Positions 21,247-28,785 of a DNA stretch of 64,000 bases are shown in pieces. The stretch is taken from the NCBI GenBank assembly GCA_011389865.1, contig JAABTL010000001.1, positions 186,001 through 250,000 on the forward strand, given 5' to 3'. Under the pieces are notes generated by a model, which saw only the letters and a program-made list of their open reading frames with translations, ran no database searches and was not told the DNA's origin. The translations under genes were made by a program, and so were the position numbers. Within the stretch, counting starts at the first letter, position 1, and each line of letters opens with the position of its first letter. The stretch is from Trueperaceae bacterium (GTDB taxonomy: Bacteria > Deinococcota > Deinococci > Deinococcales > Trueperaceae).

Positions 21247-23673
21247 ATGCACGACCCCCCCGCCCGCATCGATGCCGACGCCACCACCGCGCTGGTCGCC
21301 TGGTCGCGCTCGGCCGGGGACGCGGACACCGATGACTTCGCCCGTGCTCGACGCCGCGCCGCCCGGCTCGGCGCGCGCGTGCGCCGCGACGCCGCAGGGA
21401 TCGTCGTCGAGTTCGGGTTCTGGGCGCCGGCACTCGCGGCACGCCGCTTGCCCGACGACCGCGTCCGACTGGAGCTGTTCCTGCCCCCATCCGGACTCGA
21501 CCCGGCGCGGCCGCCGGAGACCGCGCGCTTCGTGCGCCAACGCCTGCCGCTGACGCGCGACGGCGACTACCTGTGGGCCGTCGCGCGCGGGCTGCCGGTC
21601 GGCGACGGCGGGCGCCTCGGCGCGCTCTACGCGCTCGCGCACGCCGACGAGCACGGCCGTTGGCGCAGCCTGCCCGACCCGCTGGCCGCGTCGATGCCGT
21701 TCGGTGCCTTCGCGCCCTCGGAGGTCGTCGACCTGGACGCCTTCCACGAGGGGCGCGCCGACGCGGGCTTCTTCGAACGCCACGCCGCCCGGAACGGCGA
21801 TGGCGCGGAGCCGGCGCGCTTCGGGCCACCGGTCAACGTCCTCCAGCTGCACGTGCCGACCGCCACCGCGGGCGGCACGCTGGCCAGCCTGACGCGCGCA
21901 CTGCGGCGTCTCGCCGCGAAGCTCACGACGGGCGAGCCGCTGACCCCGTACGAGCGCTGCCTGAGCGAGTACGACGCCATCCAGCCGCTGCCGCTCGAGC
22001 CGACGATCGAGCGGGAGCGGGGTCCGTGGCCCTGGTCGCCCGCGCCCGTCGATCCGGCGTCCGACGTCGACGACGCGGTCGCCGTCGACGTGCGGCTGCG
22101 CCGGCCCGACGTCATCGACTGGGGCTACGACATCGCCTTCGCCGGCATGGCTGCCACCAACCCGGCGCTGCTCGCGGGCGGCCGGCCCGACGAGGCGATC
22201 GCGCTGGCGGAGGCGCTGCACGGCTTCCCGGGGCGGCCGATGATGCTGATCCTCGACCTGGTGTACGGCCACGCGGACGACCAGTCGCTCGCCATCCTCG
22301 ACCCCGCGTTCTTCCGCGGGCCCAACATGTACGGCCAGGACGTCAACCAGCAGCACCCGGGGGTGCGCGCGCTCATGCTCGAGATGCAGCGCCGGCGGGT
22401 GGACGTCGGCGCCGACGGCATCCGCGTCGACGGCGCGCAGGACCTGAAGACCTACGACCCGGCCAGCGGTGAGCTGGCGCACGACGACGACTACCTCGTG
22501 GAGATGGGCGAGCTGGTGCAGGAGGTGGCAGGCGTCCGCTACCGCCCGTGGTGCATCTTCGAGGACGGCCGCCCGTGGCCACGCGAGGACTGGCCGACCG
22601 CCAGCCGCTACCGCGAGGTCACGGAGCGGCAGCCGCACGCCTTCCAGTGGGGACCGCTGACCTTCGCGCACAACACGCCCGCCCTGGAGGGCTTCTGGTG
22701 GGACCGCTGGTGGCGCGTCGAGCAGATCCTGGAGGTCGGCGACCGCTGGATCAGCGGTTGCGCCAACCACGACACCGTGCGGCGCGGCACGCAGCTAGAT
22801 CCCGACGGGCCCATCAACCGCCGGCTCGGCGCCACGCTGCCCGAGGTGCTGCGCCGCGCCTACGACCACCCCGCGGGCCAGCTGCTCACCTACGTCGCCT
22901 TCCCGGGCGTGCCGATGGACTTCCTCAACGCCGTGGCGCGTGCGCCGTGGGGGTTCGTGCGCGACACCGACGACCGCCATGCGGTCAAGGTGGCGGCCGA
23001 GGAGGCCGGCTTCCTCGACTGGCAGGTCGACGAGGGGGGCTTCGCCGGCGGGGAGGCCTTCGTGCGCCTCAAGGCACTGGGCTTCACCGAGCTGGCGCCG
23101 CTGCGGCGCGCGTTCCGGGCGCTCGAGGCCGAGGTGCGGGCCGGCTCGGACGTGGCGACCGCGGCCGAGCGCGTCGCCCCGCTGCTGCCCGCGGGCTTGG
23201 GGCGGCCCCCTGGCGTCGAGGGCCTGAAGCGCCTGGCCCACGCGTTCATGGCCGACGCCGCCGCGTGGTGCAACGTCGGGCGCCACGCCGACCGCATCGA
23301 CGCGGCGCAGGCCGAGTTCGGCGCCCGACTGCGGGCGCTGCGGCGCGCGCGACCGTGGCTGATGGCGGCTCTCGGCGACGGCGAGCACTGCCGCGTCGAG
23401 CGCCGCGACGGCGCCACCCTGGTCGACGCGCTGCGGCTCGCGCCCGATGGCGGCGAGGCGCTGTGGCTGGTCGCCAACCTGGAGGGGGAGACGGTCGACG
23501 TGCGCTTCGAGAACGCACCGGCGGCGGGCGCCTGGACGCCGCTGCTGGCCTCGCTGGGGGCGCACGTCGGCGACGGTGTCGTGCGGCTGCCCGACGGCGA
23601 GGGGCTGGTGCTGCGGGGGGCTCGGCCATGGATGGTTGCTTCTTGTCGCGCCACGACCGGCGACGGCCGCTAG
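21247..23673 (+). CDS. GH13-like hydrolase, resembles glucosylglycerol hydrolase
   Basis: 808 aa, no signal peptide. Contains VNVLQLHVPTATAGGTLASL, DIAFAGMAATNPALLA, MLILDLVYGHADDQSL, the GH13 nucleophile motif GADGIRVDGAQDL, WCIFEDGRPWPRED (acid) and SGCANHDTVRRGTQL (transition-state Asp). This layout, with a wide spacing of GH13 motifs, fits glucosylglycerol hydrolase, which cleaves the compatible solute glucosylglycerol in cyanobacteria. A sucrose or glucosylglycerate hydrolase is an alternative. GGAGGAG precedes the ATG. The stop TAG forms the first half of the next -10 box. Confidence 0.6.
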   Translation: MHDPPARIDADATTALVAWSRSAGDADTDDFARARRRAARLGARVRRDAAGIVVEFGFWAPALAARRLPDDRVRLELFLPPSGLDPARPPETARFVRQRLPLTRDGDYLWAVARGLPVGDGGRLGALYALAHADEHGRWRSLPDPLAASMPFGAFAPSEVVDLDAFHEGRADAGFFERHAARNGDGAEPARFGPPVNVLQLHVPTATAGGTLASLTRALRRLAAKLTTGEPLTPYERCLSEYDAIQPLPLEPTIERERGPWPWSPAPVDPASDVDDAVAVDVRLRRPDVIDWGYDIAFAGMAATNPALLAGGRPDEAIALAEALHGFPGRPMMLILDLVYGHADDQSLAILDPAFFRGPNMYGQDVNQQHPGVRALMLEMQRRRVDVGADGIRVDGAQDLKTYDPASGELAHDDDYLVEMGELVQEVAGVRYRPWCIFEDGRPWPREDWPTASRYREVTERQPHAFQWGPLTFAHNTPALEGFWWDRWWRVEQILEVGDRWISGCANHDTVRRGTQLDPDGPINRRLGATLPEVLRRAYDHPAGQLLTYVAFPGVPMDFLNAVARAPWGFVRDTDDRHAVKVAAEEAGFLDWQVDEGGFAGGEAFVRLKALGFTELAPLRRAFRALEAEVRAGSDVATAAERVAPLLPAGLGRPPGVEGLKRLAHAFMADAAAWCNVGRHADRIDAAQAEFGARLRALRRARPWLMAALGDGEHCRVERRDGATLVDALRLAPDGGEALWLVANLEGETVDVRFENAPAAGAWTPLLASLGAHVGDGVVRLPDGEGLVLRGARPWMVASCRATTGDGR

Positions 23674-23676
23674 GAT
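23671..23676 (+). promoter_or_regulatory. -10 box TAGGAT sharing the previous stop codon
   Basis: TAG 23671-23673 is the stop of the GH13-like gene; TAGGAT ends 8 bases before GTG 23685. Confidence 0.55.
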
Positions 23677-23684
23677 GAGCACAC

Positions 23685-26354
23685 GTGCTCCTGCGGACCC
23701 TGGGCGGCCTCAACTTGGAGGGCGCGTCGTTGACGCGACCCAAGCCCCTGCTCATGCTGGCGTACGTCTGTCTCGAGGGCCCGGTCACGCGCCGCGAACT
23801 CTCCGACGTCTTCTTCCACGACGCCGACGACGCTCGCGACAGCCTGTCGACCGCGCTGCGGCACCTTCGTCGGGCGGGCGCCGTGGAACGGCTCCCCGAC
23901 GAGCGGGTCTCGGCCCTGGTGGCATGCGACGCGACCGGGCTGCTGCGCGACTTCGACGCCTACCGCTACGAGGCCGTCCTGCATGCCTACGAGGGGCCCT
24001 TCCTCGAGGGGATCGACGTGTCCCTCGGCCTCGACCTCGAGACCTGGCTGTTCACGACGCGGGAGGCGATCGCGAGACGGGTGCGCGTGGCCGCGCTGCA
24101 TCGAGCCCGAGCACAGATCGCCGAGGGGCAGCTGGACGAGGCCCGCCGACTCGCCGCGCTCGCCGTCCACCTGCGCGGGGCGCCGGAGCTCGAGATGGAC
24201 GAACTGGCCGCCGCCCTGCCCGTGCTGGAGCGGCTGAACCTGCCCGAAGCGGCCCAGGTTCGCGAGCTCGCCGAGAGCTACGGTATCGACTTGGAGCGCT
24301 CCGGCCCCGGGGATGCCGAGCGCGCGCGGATCGCGACCGTGCCGCGCCGCAACACCGCCTTCTTCGGCCGCCAGGACGAACTGCGGGCCTTGGAGGAGAT
24401 CCTGGACGAGCCGAACACGCGTCTCCTCACGCTGTTCGGGCTCGGCGGCGTGGGCAAGACCCGCCTGGCGCTCCGCCTGGCCGAGCGGGTCGCGGCCCAT
24501 GGCTCGGAGCGCTACCCCGACGGCGTCGCGGTCGTGTCGCTGGAGTCGGTGGACCGGCCATCGGAGGTCGCGCACACGATCGCCGCCGGCCTCGCGCTGC
24601 CCGCCACCGCCGGCGCGAGCGCGGGCGACCTCGCCGACGCCCTCGCGAGTTGGCGGGCCCTCCTCGTGCTCGACAACTTCGAGCGCGTGGCCGGCGCCGC
24701 GACCGATCTGGCGCTCCTCACCGACCGCTGCCCGCACCTCCAGTGCCTCGTCACGAGCCGGGTTCGTCTGGGCATCGCGTGCGAGCGGACCTTCGAGCTC
24801 GGCGGTTTGGCGACGCGGAGCTCGGTTGAGCCCGCGGGCGTCGCCCCCGCGCCGACCCTCGGGGCGATGTCCGAAGCCGCCCAGCTCTTCGCCGAGCGGG
24901 CCACGGGTGTGGGCTTCCCGACGGAGGCCGTCACCCGTGACGCGGACGCCATCGAGGCGTTGTGCGGAACGCTGGAGGGGTACCCGCTCGGCATCGAGCT
25001 GGCGGCGGCGTTGACGCGCGCCCTGTCGGTCGCAGAGATCCATGCGGCGCTTCGCCGCGACCTCGAGGTGCTCGACCACGGGCCGCTCGATGCGCCCGCC
25101 CGCCACCAAGGTGTCAGGGCCGTGCTGGAACCGAGCTGGTCCCTGCTGCAGCCCCGCGAACGCGACGCGTTGGCGCGGCTGAGCGTGTTCCGGACGACCT
25201 TCGCCTTCGATGCCGCGGCCGCCGTCGGCGGCCTGTCGCTGCCGTCCCTGCTCCGGCTCGTCGACCACGCCGTACTGCGCGCCGACGGCAGCGGCCGCGG
25301 CCGCTTCGGCTTCCACCCGGTCATGCTGGCCTACCTCCGGGAACGCTGCGGCGCGGCGGAGCGAGCGGCGGCCGAGGAGGCGCACCGGACGTTCTTCGCC
25401 GAGCGCCTGGCGGCGGACGGCCCCCGCGCCGCCTCCGAACCGCGCGAGGTGCTGGACCGCTTGGCCGCCGACCTGCCGGACGTCATGTACGCGGTGCGGG
25501 CATGGTTCGCCGCGGGTGACGACGCCCGCGCCATCGACATGATGCGGGCGTTGGTGGTGGACGCCGAGTTCTTGGTGGCGCGGGGCGGCGGCGTCGAGCT
25601 CATCGCCCTGGCCCGCCAGGCGGCCCTCGCGGCCGAGGCCCGCGGCGACCTCCACGCGGCCGAGCCCCTGTGGACGAAGGTGGCCAACGCGGTGCGCCTC
25701 CTCCAGGACGACCTCTTCGAGGCCGTCGCGTGCTACGCGCGCGCGCTGGAACTGGCCGAGCGGAGCGACGAGGTCGGCCGGCAGGTCATGCTCCATGCGA
25801 TCCTGGGAGGGATCCTGGACGCGCAGTTGCCGGACGTCGCGGAGGCCCACATGACCAAGGCCGGGGACCTCGCGGAGGCGGCGGACGACGACCTCCTTCG
25901 CTGCGAGGTGCTGCACCGCCGCGGGTACGTCGCTTCGGCGCGGGAGGACTGGCCCCGAGCGCGAACGCTGAACGCCCGGGCCGTCGAGATCGCGGACCGG
26001 CTCTGGGCGGCCGGTGCTCACCCCGGTCGCGTGCCCAGCCTGCTCTTCTTCAGCCTGCACAACCTGGGGGTCGCCGAGGAGGGGCTCGGCGACGTGGCCG
26101 CGTCGATCCCGCACCGCACCCGCGCCCTGGAGGTGGCGACCGCCCGCGGGCAGTCCCTGTGGATCGCCAACGCCCGGCACGACCTGGCCATCGCCTACCG
26201 GGCGCTCGACGACCGAGACGCCGCACGCCGCCACGCCGAGGAGGCGCTGCGCCTCTACGACCTCCAGGGGGCCGCCAGGAACCGCGCGAGGGTCCAGGAG
26301 ATGCTCCGCTCGTGGGGGGAGGAGGAGGCGTCTCACGATGAGGTCACGGGATGA
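23685..26354 (+). CDS. SARP/BTAD-type regulator fused to a STAND (NB-ARC) ATPase and TPRs
   Basis: 889 aa, GTG start. Residues 1-95 form a winged helix (RRELSDVFFHDADDARDSLSTALRHLRR). About 95-215 is BTAD-like, opening with YEGPFLEG. The NB-ARC ATPase follows FFGRQDELRALEEIL, with Walker A GLGGVGKT (252-259), ALLVLDNFE (Walker B), LVTSR and GYPLGIELAA. A winged-helix region and carboxyl TPR-like helices end the protein. AfsR-type proteins of this shape hydrolyse ATP on ligand sensing and activate transcription. Followed by a secreted subtilase and a second SARP gene, which may be its targets. Confidence 0.85.
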   Translation: MLLRTLGGLNLEGASLTRPKPLLMLAYVCLEGPVTRRELSDVFFHDADDARDSLSTALRHLRRAGAVERLPDERVSALVACDATGLLRDFDAYRYEAVLHAYEGPFLEGIDVSLGLDLETWLFTTREAIARRVRVAALHRARAQIAEGQLDEARRLAALAVHLRGAPELEMDELAAALPVLERLNLPEAAQVRELAESYGIDLERSGPGDAERARIATVPRRNTAFFGRQDELRALEEILDEPNTRLLTLFGLGGVGKTRLALRLAERVAAHGSERYPDGVAVVSLESVDRPSEVAHTIAAGLALPATAGASAGDLADALASWRALLVLDNFERVAGAATDLALLTDRCPHLQCLVTSRVRLGIACERTFELGGLATRSSVEPAGVAPAPTLGAMSEAAQLFAERATGVGFPTEAVTRDADAIEALCGTLEGYPLGIELAAALTRALSVAEIHAALRRDLEVLDHGPLDAPARHQGVRAVLEPSWSLLQPRERDALARLSVFRTTFAFDAAAAVGGLSLPSLLRLVDHAVLRADGSGRGRFGFHPVMLAYLRERCGAAERAAAEEAHRTFFAERLAADGPRAASEPREVLDRLAADLPDVMYAVRAWFAAGDDARAIDMMRALVVDAEFLVARGGGVELIALARQAALAAEARGDLHAAEPLWTKVANAVRLLQDDLFEAVACYARALELAERSDEVGRQVMLHAILGGILDAQLPDVAEAHMTKAGDLAEAADDDLLRCEVLHRRGYVASAREDWPRARTLNARAVEIADRLWAAGAHPGRVPSLLFFSLHNLGVAEEGLGDVAASIPHRTRALEVATARGQSLWIANARHDLAIAYRALDDRDAARRHAEEALRLYDLQGAARNRARVQEMLRSWGEEEASHDEVTG

Positions 26355-26421
26355 GCCGCAGCATCTTGGTGCGGCGCCATGGCGGCGATCCGCCGTGACT
26401 TCGAATGGGGAGCGTGAGCAC

Positions 26422-27852
26422 ATGGAACGAAGCAGCCGGATCCGTCCCTTCCTCCTCGCCGTGGCCGTTGCCGCCTTGGCGGGCGCCGCCTGGGGCCAAG
26501 CGTGGCAGCCTCACTGGGAGGCGGACCTCTACCACGCGTTCGTCGAGGGGCTCGGCGAACGTCAAGCGTTGGCCGGCAGGATCGCCGACGCCGCCCGGGC
26601 GGGTGCCCGTCTCGACGTCGAGGCCGTCACGGGAGACGTGTGCGCCATGCAGCTCGGGACCGGCGGGAACCCGCGAATCGACGGTGGGGGCGGCACGGCC
26701 CGGATCGACGGCGGGGGCGGCCGGCCCAGGGTCGACGGCGGCGGCGACACGCTGCTGGCGCCGTTCCCCTCGGGAGGCTCGGCGCTCTGGCCCTACCCGC
26801 ACGCGAGCGCCTACGTCGTCCCCTTCCCCCCCACCGGCGGCCTCGAGCCACCCACCGTTCGGATGGCCGTGATCGACGCGTTCGGGACCGGCGCCTTCGG
26901 CGCGCTGACCGGCAGCGGCGCGACGTACAGCGTGGCCGCCCTATGGCACGAGCTGGTCGGTCGACTGCTTCTGGGTCACGGCGCGGATCCGGTCCCCCAC
27001 GGCAACCTGGTCCTGTTCCACCTGCTCGCGCAGTGGGCGGGACAGGACGGGCTCCAGGTTCGTGCCTCGGGGGACGAGGAACGCCCCGTGCTGCACGTCA
27101 GCGCGCCTGGCCGCAGCGAAGAAGCGGACGTCCACCTCCTCGGCGTCGCGTACGCGGACGTCGCGAGCATCCGACGGGCCATGGACGACGCGAGGGAGCT
27201 CGGTGACGCCGTGGTCGTGGCGAGCTGGGGGTTGGTCGACTGCACGGTGGCGGCGGGGTATCAGGCCGCGGCGTCCACGCTGCCCAGCTTCGCCACCTAC
27301 GTCGCCGGCGTGCTGCGGCGCTCGGGCGTATCGCAGGCGCTGCTGAGGGAGCTGTGCGGGGCCTTCGGGCCCGAGATCGCCGCGGTCGTGGGGTACGCGG
27401 ATTGCGAGAACGAGGGCTTCTTGAGATCGATCAGCCGGCTGCTGACCGTGGCGGCGGTGGCGGAGATGGACCGTCGGGCGCGCTTCGCGGTGGAGTGGGA
27501 CGATGGTGGCGACGGCGGGCTCGCCGTCTTCGCATCGGCGGGCAACCAGGGCCTGGCGTTCCCGATGCCGCCGGCCGCGTGGCCGGGGGTGGTGGGCGTG
27601 GAGGCGTGCGTCGCCGGGGCCCTGGACGAGCCGGCGGCCTTCTCGAACGCAGGCAGCACGTTGCTGGACGGCGCCTTCGGGGCCCGCGCCCTCGGCGGCT
27701 GGTTCGCCACGCCGGTCCTCGTGGACGGCGCGCTCCTCGGCTACTGGGGAACCTCGTTCGCGGCGCCTGCCGCGGCGGCGGCCTTCGCCGGCGGGCGCTG
27801 GGACCTCGGTGCCCTCGGGGTCGTGGCGCCCTGCACGGAGGGTCAGAGGTGA
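26422..27852 (+). CDS. Secreted subtilisin-like serine protease (S8)
   Basis: 476 aa. A signal peptide of about 26 residues (basic start, hydrophobic core, AAWGQA end) indicates export. Catalytic Asp152 (VIDAFGTG), His193 (VPHGNLVLFHL), oxyanion Asn375 (ASAGNQG) and Ser445 (GTSFAAP) are all present. The Asp motif is atypical (usually VIDTG). Six Cys in the mature part may form disulfides. Residues 84-110 are three 9-residue R-I-D-G-G-G repeats ahead of the catalytic domain, possibly a propeptide linker. GGGAG lies upstream of ATG 26422. Sits between two SARP regulators. Confidence 0.85.
   Translation: MERSSRIRPFLLAVAVAALAGAAWGQAWQPHWEADLYHAFVEGLGERQALAGRIADAARAGARLDVEAVTGDVCAMQLGTGGNPRIDGGGGTARIDGGGGRPRVDGGGDTLLAPFPSGGSALWPYPHASAYVVPFPPTGGLEPPTVRMAVIDAFGTGAFGALTGSGATYSVAALWHELVGRLLLGHGADPVPHGNLVLFHLLAQWAGQDGLQVRASGDEERPVLHVSAPGRSEEADVHLLGVAYADVASIRRAMDDARELGDAVVVASWGLVDCTVAAGYQAAASTLPSFATYVAGVLRRSGVSQALLRELCGAFGPEIAAVVGYADCENEGFLRSISRLLTVAAVAEMDRRARFAVEWDDGGDGGLAVFASAGNQGLAFPMPPAAWPGVVGVEACVAGALDEPAAFSNAGSTLLDGAFGARALGGWFATPVLVDGALLGYWGTSFAAPAAAAAFAGGRWDLGALGVVAPCTEGQR
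26671..26751 (+). repeat. Three 27-bp in-frame repeats in the subtilase
   Basis: Encode (P/A)R(I/V)DGGG units with 9-residue period, residues 84-110. Confidence 0.8.
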
Positions 27853-27922
27853 TCCCGCGCCGCGGTCGGGTCTTGGACGGAGCGTGAACGGAGCCGCCGC
27901 CGCATCCTGATCTCGCGGGATC

Positions 27923-27927
27923 GGAGG
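27923..27927 (+). promoter_or_regulatory. Ribosome site GGAGG of the small SARP gene
   Basis: 6 bases before ATG 27934. No TANNNT box is seen in 27853-27933, so this gene probably shares a transcript with the subtilase. Confidence 0.55.
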
Positions 27928-27933
27928 CCGCTC

Positions 27934-28785
27934 ATGACCATCAGGAAGGGATTCGATCGCAGCGACGCTGCAGGACCGGCCAGGCGTGTGCGGTCGTGGC
28001 GCCTGCTCGGGGACGCCCGCGAGGGCGTGGCCGCCCCGGCGCGCCGGCGAGGGCGCTCGGCGAGGCGTGGGTTCGACCGCCCGTCCCCGCCGTCGCTGGC
28101 GCTGCTGGGGGCGCCGCGCCTGCGCATCGACGGGGCGTGGCACGATCTGCCGCCGAGCCGCTGGGTCGCCCTGCTGGCGTACGTCGCCCACGCGCGCACA
28201 TGGGTGCGCCGAGAGCTGCTGGCGGTGACCTTCTGGCCCGAACACGACCAGGTGCGCGCGTCGTGGAATCTTCGCCAGTGCCTGCAGACGATCGCCCGCT
28301 CGCGCGCGGGAACCGCCTTCGAGCGCGAGCCCACGCGGGTGTGCTGGCGGGGAACGTCGGACCTCGGCGATTTCCAGTCCTACCTGGAGGCCGCATCGTG
28401 GCAGGCGGCCGTCGCGACGTACCGCGGCCCCTTCCTCGACGGCCTCGAAGCGGTAGACGTCGGCCCCTTCCAGGACTGGCTCGGGGTCGAGCGCGGCGAC
28501 CTGCAGGAGCGGTGGCGGGCGGGCGTCCTGGCGCTCGCGGAGGAGCGGCTCCGCGCCGATCGGGGCGGAGCGGCGCTGGACCTGGTCCACACCCTCCTGC
28601 GGCACGACCCGCTCGACGAGGTCGCCGTCCGGCTCGCCCTGCGCGCCGCCGCGGCGAGCGGCGACCGGACCCGCGGCGCCCGGGCCTACCTGGCGTTCTG
28701 CGAGGCGCTGCGTGACGAACTCGGCGCGGAGCCCGAACCTACGACCGAAGCCCTGTGGAAGGAACTGACGTCGACGCCCGCCTGA
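27934..28785 (+). CDS. SARP/BTAD transcriptional regulator without ATPase
   Basis: 283 aa. Residues about 50-130 are a winged helix (LLGAPRLRIDGAWHDLPPSR, then RRELLAVTFWPEHDQVRASWNLRQCLQTI). About 135-280 is a BTAD helical domain with YRGPFLDGLEAVDV and a TPR-like end. It shares the GPFL-G signature and layout with the amino part of the 889-aa regulator, so the two are paralogues. The first 45 residues are Arg-rich and likely disordered. The stop TGA is the loop of an 8-bp hairpin. Confidence 0.85.
   Translation: MTIRKGFDRSDAAGPARRVRSWRLLGDAREGVAAPARRRGRSARRGFDRPSPPSLALLGAPRLRIDGAWHDLPPSRWVALLAYVAHARTWVRRELLAVTFWPEHDQVRASWNLRQCLQTIARSRAGTAFEREPTRVCWRGTSDLGDFQSYLEAASWQAAVATYRGPFLDGLEAVDVGPFQDWLGVERGDLQERWRAGVLALAEERLRADRGGAALDLVHTLLRHDPLDEVAVRLALRAAAASGDRTRGARAYLAFCEALRDELGAEPEPTTEALWKELTSTPA

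Follow-up and report, generated by a model that had tools for sequence, protein, structure and literature searches.

What could tie together, in a member of the Trueperaceae, relatives of Deinococcus that have received little study, an AfsR-type regulator, an exported subtilase and a second, smaller SARP regulator, and does the large regulator govern the protease that follows it? This locus was analysed within a window of 64,000 nucleotides, by which we mean the whole stretch of DNA considered (contig JAABTL010000001.1, positions 186,001 to 250,000), and it comprises the following features, with coordinates given in the window.

23671..23676, + strand: -10-like TAGGAT, 8 bases 5' of the GTG start of the large regulator; a probable leaderless promoter, judging from its position
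23685..26354, + strand: large SARP (AfsR-type) P0001, 889 aa, with SARP-like N-terminus, NB-ARC ATPase and TPR
26040..27850 (edges approximate), + strand: allelic replacement block, covering the ~105 C-terminal aa (TPR) of the regulator and the entire protease
26422..27852, + strand: exported S8 subtilase P0002, 476 aa, with signal peptide and catalytic D152/H193/N375/S445
26656..26748, + strand: imperfect tandem repeat GNPRIDGGG/GTARIDGGG/GRPRVDGGG of P0002, about residues 79-109, N-terminal to the catalytic domain
27873..27894, + strand: SARP box TTGGACGGAGC GTGAACGGAGC, an 11-bp direct repeat
27903..27908, + strand: -10-like CATCCT, 8 bp 3' of the SARP box, a spacing identical to the published SARP promoter geometry
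27934..28785, + strand: small SARP P0003, 283 aa, with winged helix, BTAD and an N-terminal extension

An earlier sequence-only reading had correctly placed three genes on the same strand, separated by 67 and 81 bases, and had described the regulators as a SARP/BTAD-NB-ARC-TPR protein and a small paralogous SARP, with which Pfam, BLAST and a profile match to AfsR agree. NB-ARC/AAA and TPR_12 were detected by Pfam in P0001, while its N-terminal SARP part, below Pfam detection, matches by BLAST the small SARP P0003, itself recognized through its BTAD domain (E 4.9e-16); the partner regulators of relatives carry a Pfam BTAD. The Walker A motif GxGGxGKT is conserved in the large regulator, and the solved AfsR is the first structure match of the profile of P0001 orthologues (E 2.6e-14). 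The locus thereby displays the SARP N-terminus, the NOD/NB-ARC ATPase with TPR C-terminus and the promoter of SARP-box geometry by which large SARPs are recognized. The TAGGAT upstream of the large regulator is kept in the window genome (G000), G001, G002 and G004 despite a differing upstream gene; in the window this gene is amylase-like, and its stop codon coincides with bases 1-3 of the putative -10 (23671-23676). P0003 resembles the small SARPs of the RedD type in its winged helix and BTAD, its length of about 280 aa and its SARP-type promoter, but differs from them in not belonging to a recognised antibiotic cluster.

The protease is more divergent. Inspection of P0002 reveals a Sec signal peptide, and its match to the Pfam S8 family is sub-threshold (E 5.7e-4, 19.7 bits against a cut-off of 21.8) and confined to the C-terminal part (residues 362-456); several of its relatives exceed the cut-off. 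D152, H193, N375, S445 and six cysteines are invariant across eight orthologues sharing 27-58% identity, which bears out the former description of a signal-peptide S8 protease with all catalytic residues, and the Asp/His/Ser triad and oxyanion Asn are also invariant, in order, in the full family alignment. The half carrying the catalytic Asn and Ser aligns to Tk-subtilisin (E 4.4e-14), with cyanobactin proteases among the matches. This half constitutes the likeness to S8A subtilisins and N-terminal cyanobactin proteases, from which P0002 differs by its divergent Asp/His half, its repeat region and the lack of an above-cut-off Pfam match. An AlphaFold model built from a shallow alignment had a mean pLDDT of 38. 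The protease defines a distinct exported S8 subfamily, apparently undescribed.

Co-occurrence of the three families in related genomes had been proposed as a check on the original reading, and both synteny and co-inheritance were found. Eight genomes belonging to two genera of Trueperaceae carry the cassette: its three genes keep their synteny in G000, G001, G002 and G004, which belong to the genus of the window, and in G015, G035 and G037 of the second genus, and are adjacent in a reordered form in G029, while a copy in G038 is broken by a contig end. This repeated synteny indicates that the trio is more than a chance assembly. The two genera have different sequences flanking the cassette, which therefore moved or was inherited at different sites; in G003, of the same genus as the window, no cassette was found beside der, another gene lying 12 bases after it. 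In the genomes read, orthologues of the small SARP occur only beside the cassette, except in G032, where a short contig carries a distant one. No published description of a SARP/STAND regulator paired with an exported S8 protease was found in the literature searched, in which few subscription journals were covered, in line with the previous remark that no system of this exact composition was known.

The association of protease and regulator extends beyond the three-gene cassette. Using a subfamily profile to which full-length relatives score above 85 bits and ordinary S8 genes below 60 bits, through their C-terminal part only, 30 members were collected, 28 of which could be assessed for their neighbours. 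A large SARP/NB-ARC-TPR regulator adjoins 22 of these 28, the large SARP or NB-ARC-TPR gene being directly 5' of the protease in 21 and on the other side in one; in a further member the protease is the second of a tandem, in four it is preceded by a class III cyclase-ATPase-TPR gene rather than a SARP, and one (G021 C304) has no STAND neighbour, with only GGDEF/EAL genes nearby. This last member (L115) carries GVRAMGS repeats and lies near two large PAS/GAF/GGDEF/EAL genes. At the four cyclase-linked loci (L111, L112, L113 and L118) the exported S8 protease has GLQAVGA repeats, followed in L112 by a SulP-STAS transporter with a cNMP-binding domain; they may possibly represent a cyclic-nucleotide version of the regulator-protease unit. 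Four generic S8 genes were checked and none lies beside such a regulator. No consistent pattern of S8 genes or repeats was found 3' of other large SARPs. The association reaches Truepera radiovictrix, the Thermaceae-like G104 and one Anaerolineae MAG. Outside Deinococcota at least 14 loci were found and, among the matches listed, only the Anaerolineae locus scores at subfamily level; a shallow scan of Chloroflexota, with scoring limited to three candidates per genome, gave one match in 400 genomes, suggesting that the association is rare in this phylum. Distances between regulators correlate with those between proteases (Mantel r 0.87 overall and 0.71 for distant pairs, p 1e-4), as can also arise from shared descent alone, and three changes on the tree suffice for the paired regulators, where shuffling gives a mean of 18.6, a result favoured by the sampling of part of the tree's regulators through protease loci.

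The promoter regions indicate how these genes could be connected. SARP promoters are organized as 11-bp direct repeats followed by 8 bp and a -10 (PMC10936776). Each of the eight cassettes has, 5' of the small SARP, an 11-bp direct repeat of the TGRACGGR type followed after about 8 bp by a -10-like CATCCT or a variant of it, and in G029 the box remains with this gene despite the altered gene order. Allowing two mismatches, the box of the window has no second match within the window and, allowing one, none in the whole 3.05 Mb genome; over nine genomes, the pattern with at most one mismatch retrieved nine matches, six of them at the cassette. No box was found 5' of the protease or of the big regulator in the clade of the window, and the window box, part of a putative promoter, would drive the small SARP and not the protease. 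The boxes, with their geometry and near-uniqueness, are read directly from the sequence, as are the genes, their conservation and co-inheritance and the block replacement described below.

A different layout was observed in relatives having only the two genes, the sequence of the box varying between clades. In G021 (5.6 Mb), exact TGCAAACGC repeats occur at only two sites, which flank the regulator, one of these boxes lying 8 bp from a TAGACT that precedes the protease. Likewise, only two sites are present at up to one mismatch in the 3.26 Mb genome of T. radiovictrix, both flanking the regulator, one 5' of the protease and the other 5' of a DUF6345 lipoprotein gene. The twin-box layout is repeated in G035 with a weaker match (2 mismatches), and further weak matches are found elsewhere in that genome. 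These flanking boxes constitute the best evidence suggesting that the regulators control the protease, and a circuit leading from regulator to protease in the two-gene relatives is, on such grounds, well supported. They also bear, together with the repeated independent adjacency and the co-inheritance, on whether the genes could be unrelated neighbours with no functional tie: many other large SARPs in these genomes do have varied neighbours, but an explanation by chance is contradicted by the conserved synteny and was rejected as barely credible.

We therefore favour, with a fair degree of confidence, a dedicated local SARP/STAND circuit for the exported subtilase. The large regulator would have its own promoter, from which the protease located 67 bases downstream is probably transcribed as well, and ATP or a ligand would release its ATPase/TPR part. 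A SARP domain of the cassette (that of the large protein, that of the small one as an autoactivator, or both) would then activate the promoter at 27873-27908 and thereby the small SARP gene, whose product could amplify or pass on the response; a feedback role of this small regulator, as initially suggested, is possible. In the two-gene relatives, the twin boxes around the regulator are placed to switch on the protease and the exported protein or lipoprotein on the other side. In this scheme we infer which of the proteins binds the box, that it activates and does not repress, what the cue is and what the protease cleaves. The sequence-only reading had anticipated regulators that activate nearby genes, and SARP-type promoter boxes do tie them to the locus; its further proposal that the big regulator switches on the protease finds a parallel in two-gene relatives, where the boxes preceding the protease suggest direct control, but in the clade of the window the box stands only 5' of the small SARP.

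The adjacency of a STAND ATPase and a protease, the allelic replacement of a putative effector and a patchy presence could also evoke a cassette for defence or conflict in which a STAND protein acts with an effector. The STAND-linked conflict systems of PMC7159879 resemble the present locus by an ATPase regulator near peptidases; the S8 domains mentioned there are fused to nuclease and trypsin-like domains, and the S8 protease is here a separate exported protein. Export, which had already been recognized as not fitting intracellular STAND-protease effectors, the absence of a meaningful PADLOC match (a single weak one, mad8, E 0.016) and near-unique transcriptional boxes, pointing to gene regulation rather than to direct activation of an effector, led us to reject this very improbable explanation.

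Comparison of the window with G001 and G002 revealed a contrasted history within the locus. Nucleotide identity is about 88-98% in most of the upstream part of the regulator and in the downstream der, drops from about 26,040 to 57-80% over most of a block spanning the last TPRs and the protease, and recovers by the small SARP and der; G001 and G002 are mostly 80-99% identical to each other throughout. The dS values reach 0.60-0.71 for the protease against 0.15-0.28 for both regulators. As synonymous divergence is raised as well, the block reflects a replacement and not only selection, and a rapid evolution of the protease in place was rejected. The protease and the C-terminal TPR of the regulator were replaced as one allelic block.

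The region preceding the catalytic domain raises the question of the signal and of the function of the protease. Most two-gene and cyclase-linked relatives display there a heptapeptide (PYRVVGA, AMRINGS, GLQAVGA, GLNAVGA, GVNALGA or GVRAMGS), usually in 2-3 exact tandem copies, located between a Cys-containing PGQ/NPQ motif and GG. Within an array, and between orthologues with 41-79% protein identity, all differences between copies are synonymous, and the paralogues of G021 carry different units. The imperfect nine-residue Gly/Asp-rich repeat of the window protease is the counterpart of these exact heptads, and in several members there is just one copy. Two cysteines, one before the repeat and one C-terminal, show full or almost full conservation.

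These two cysteines and the position of the repeats are consistent with a strap, fixed by the N- and C-terminal Cys, that would block or fold the protease as in a zymogen, the regulator merely controlling an exported protease for nutrition, surface remodelling or competition. Proteolysis at the cell surface is suggested by the exported partners seen in relatives (PKD, papain-like and DUF6345), in agreement with such a role, which we regard as a plausible though minority alternative; it explains poorly the exact identity within arrays and the complete change of unit between paralogues. At L117 (9303-11834) an exported papain-like protein adjoins the protease, and the divergent neighbour in T. 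radiovictrix (L047, 13842-15449) is the DUF6345 lipoprotein; these partners may also be proteases.

The exact heptads with their silent changes and the switch of unit within the single genome of G021 could conversely point to a self-contained peptide signalling, in which the exported subtilase carries in its pro-region a repeated pheromone and lies next to an AfsR-type STAND-TPR regulator. The peptide would be freed by the protease itself or with other proteases and, once imported, sensed by the TPR of the partner, which would re-activate the protease via the near-unique flanking SARP boxes. The partner usually has a TPR part, the C-terminal portion of which was exchanged jointly with the protease in the window, but adjacency alone can yield such a linked exchange. 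The units are embedded in a large protease and not in a small propeptide, the repeat of the window is imperfect and several members are single-copy, and the argument from purifying selection is inflated by the choice of arrays for their identical copies. We consider this scenario unlikely, and less so than the defence cassette.

A precedent for it is given by RRNPPA systems, whose tandem pheromones are matured by extracellular proteases (PMC11343458). Rap-Phr and related systems share with the present loci a TPR regulator, short exact repeated peptide units and subtilisin-type proteases in the pathway; here the propeptide, maturation protease and receptor-regulator would share one locus, the repeats are built into the protease, the regulator is of the ATPase/SARP and not of the Rap or PlcR types, and the peptide is a putative one. 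The candidate receptor, a SARP-STAND protein, falls outside the Rap/Rgg/NprR/PlcR/PrgX/AimR family, its profile giving only a weak generic TPR match to RapH. If true, this scenario would define a new class of peptide signalling locus, for which the exact heptapeptides and the joint TPR/protease exchange provide a concrete candidate signal.

To our knowledge, the ligands and targets of the numerous large SARP/STAND regulators are mostly unknown. The regulator, its probable target and a near-unique operator are gathered here in one small locus, including that of the cultured type strain T. radiovictrix, which makes ligand sensing by an AfsR-type protein directly testable. AfsR of Streptomyces coelicolor (PDB 8k60, 8jke, 8hvr; PMC10936776) has the same SARP-NOD-TPR order and box geometry; its role is pleiotropic, whereas the regulators described here have local near-unique boxes; they adjoin an exported subtilase, which in relatives they appear to control.

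Two exact GTTGACGC direct-repeat boxes were also seen on the minus strand of L195 (G008:C12, 2208 and 8272), one of them upstream of a small lipoprotein gene and both at a distance from any S8 gene seen there. BTAD regulators are greatly expanded in the family, the window genome having at least 16 matches to P0003, several in tandem, on contigs C2, C3, C5, C18, C20, C28, C66 and others.
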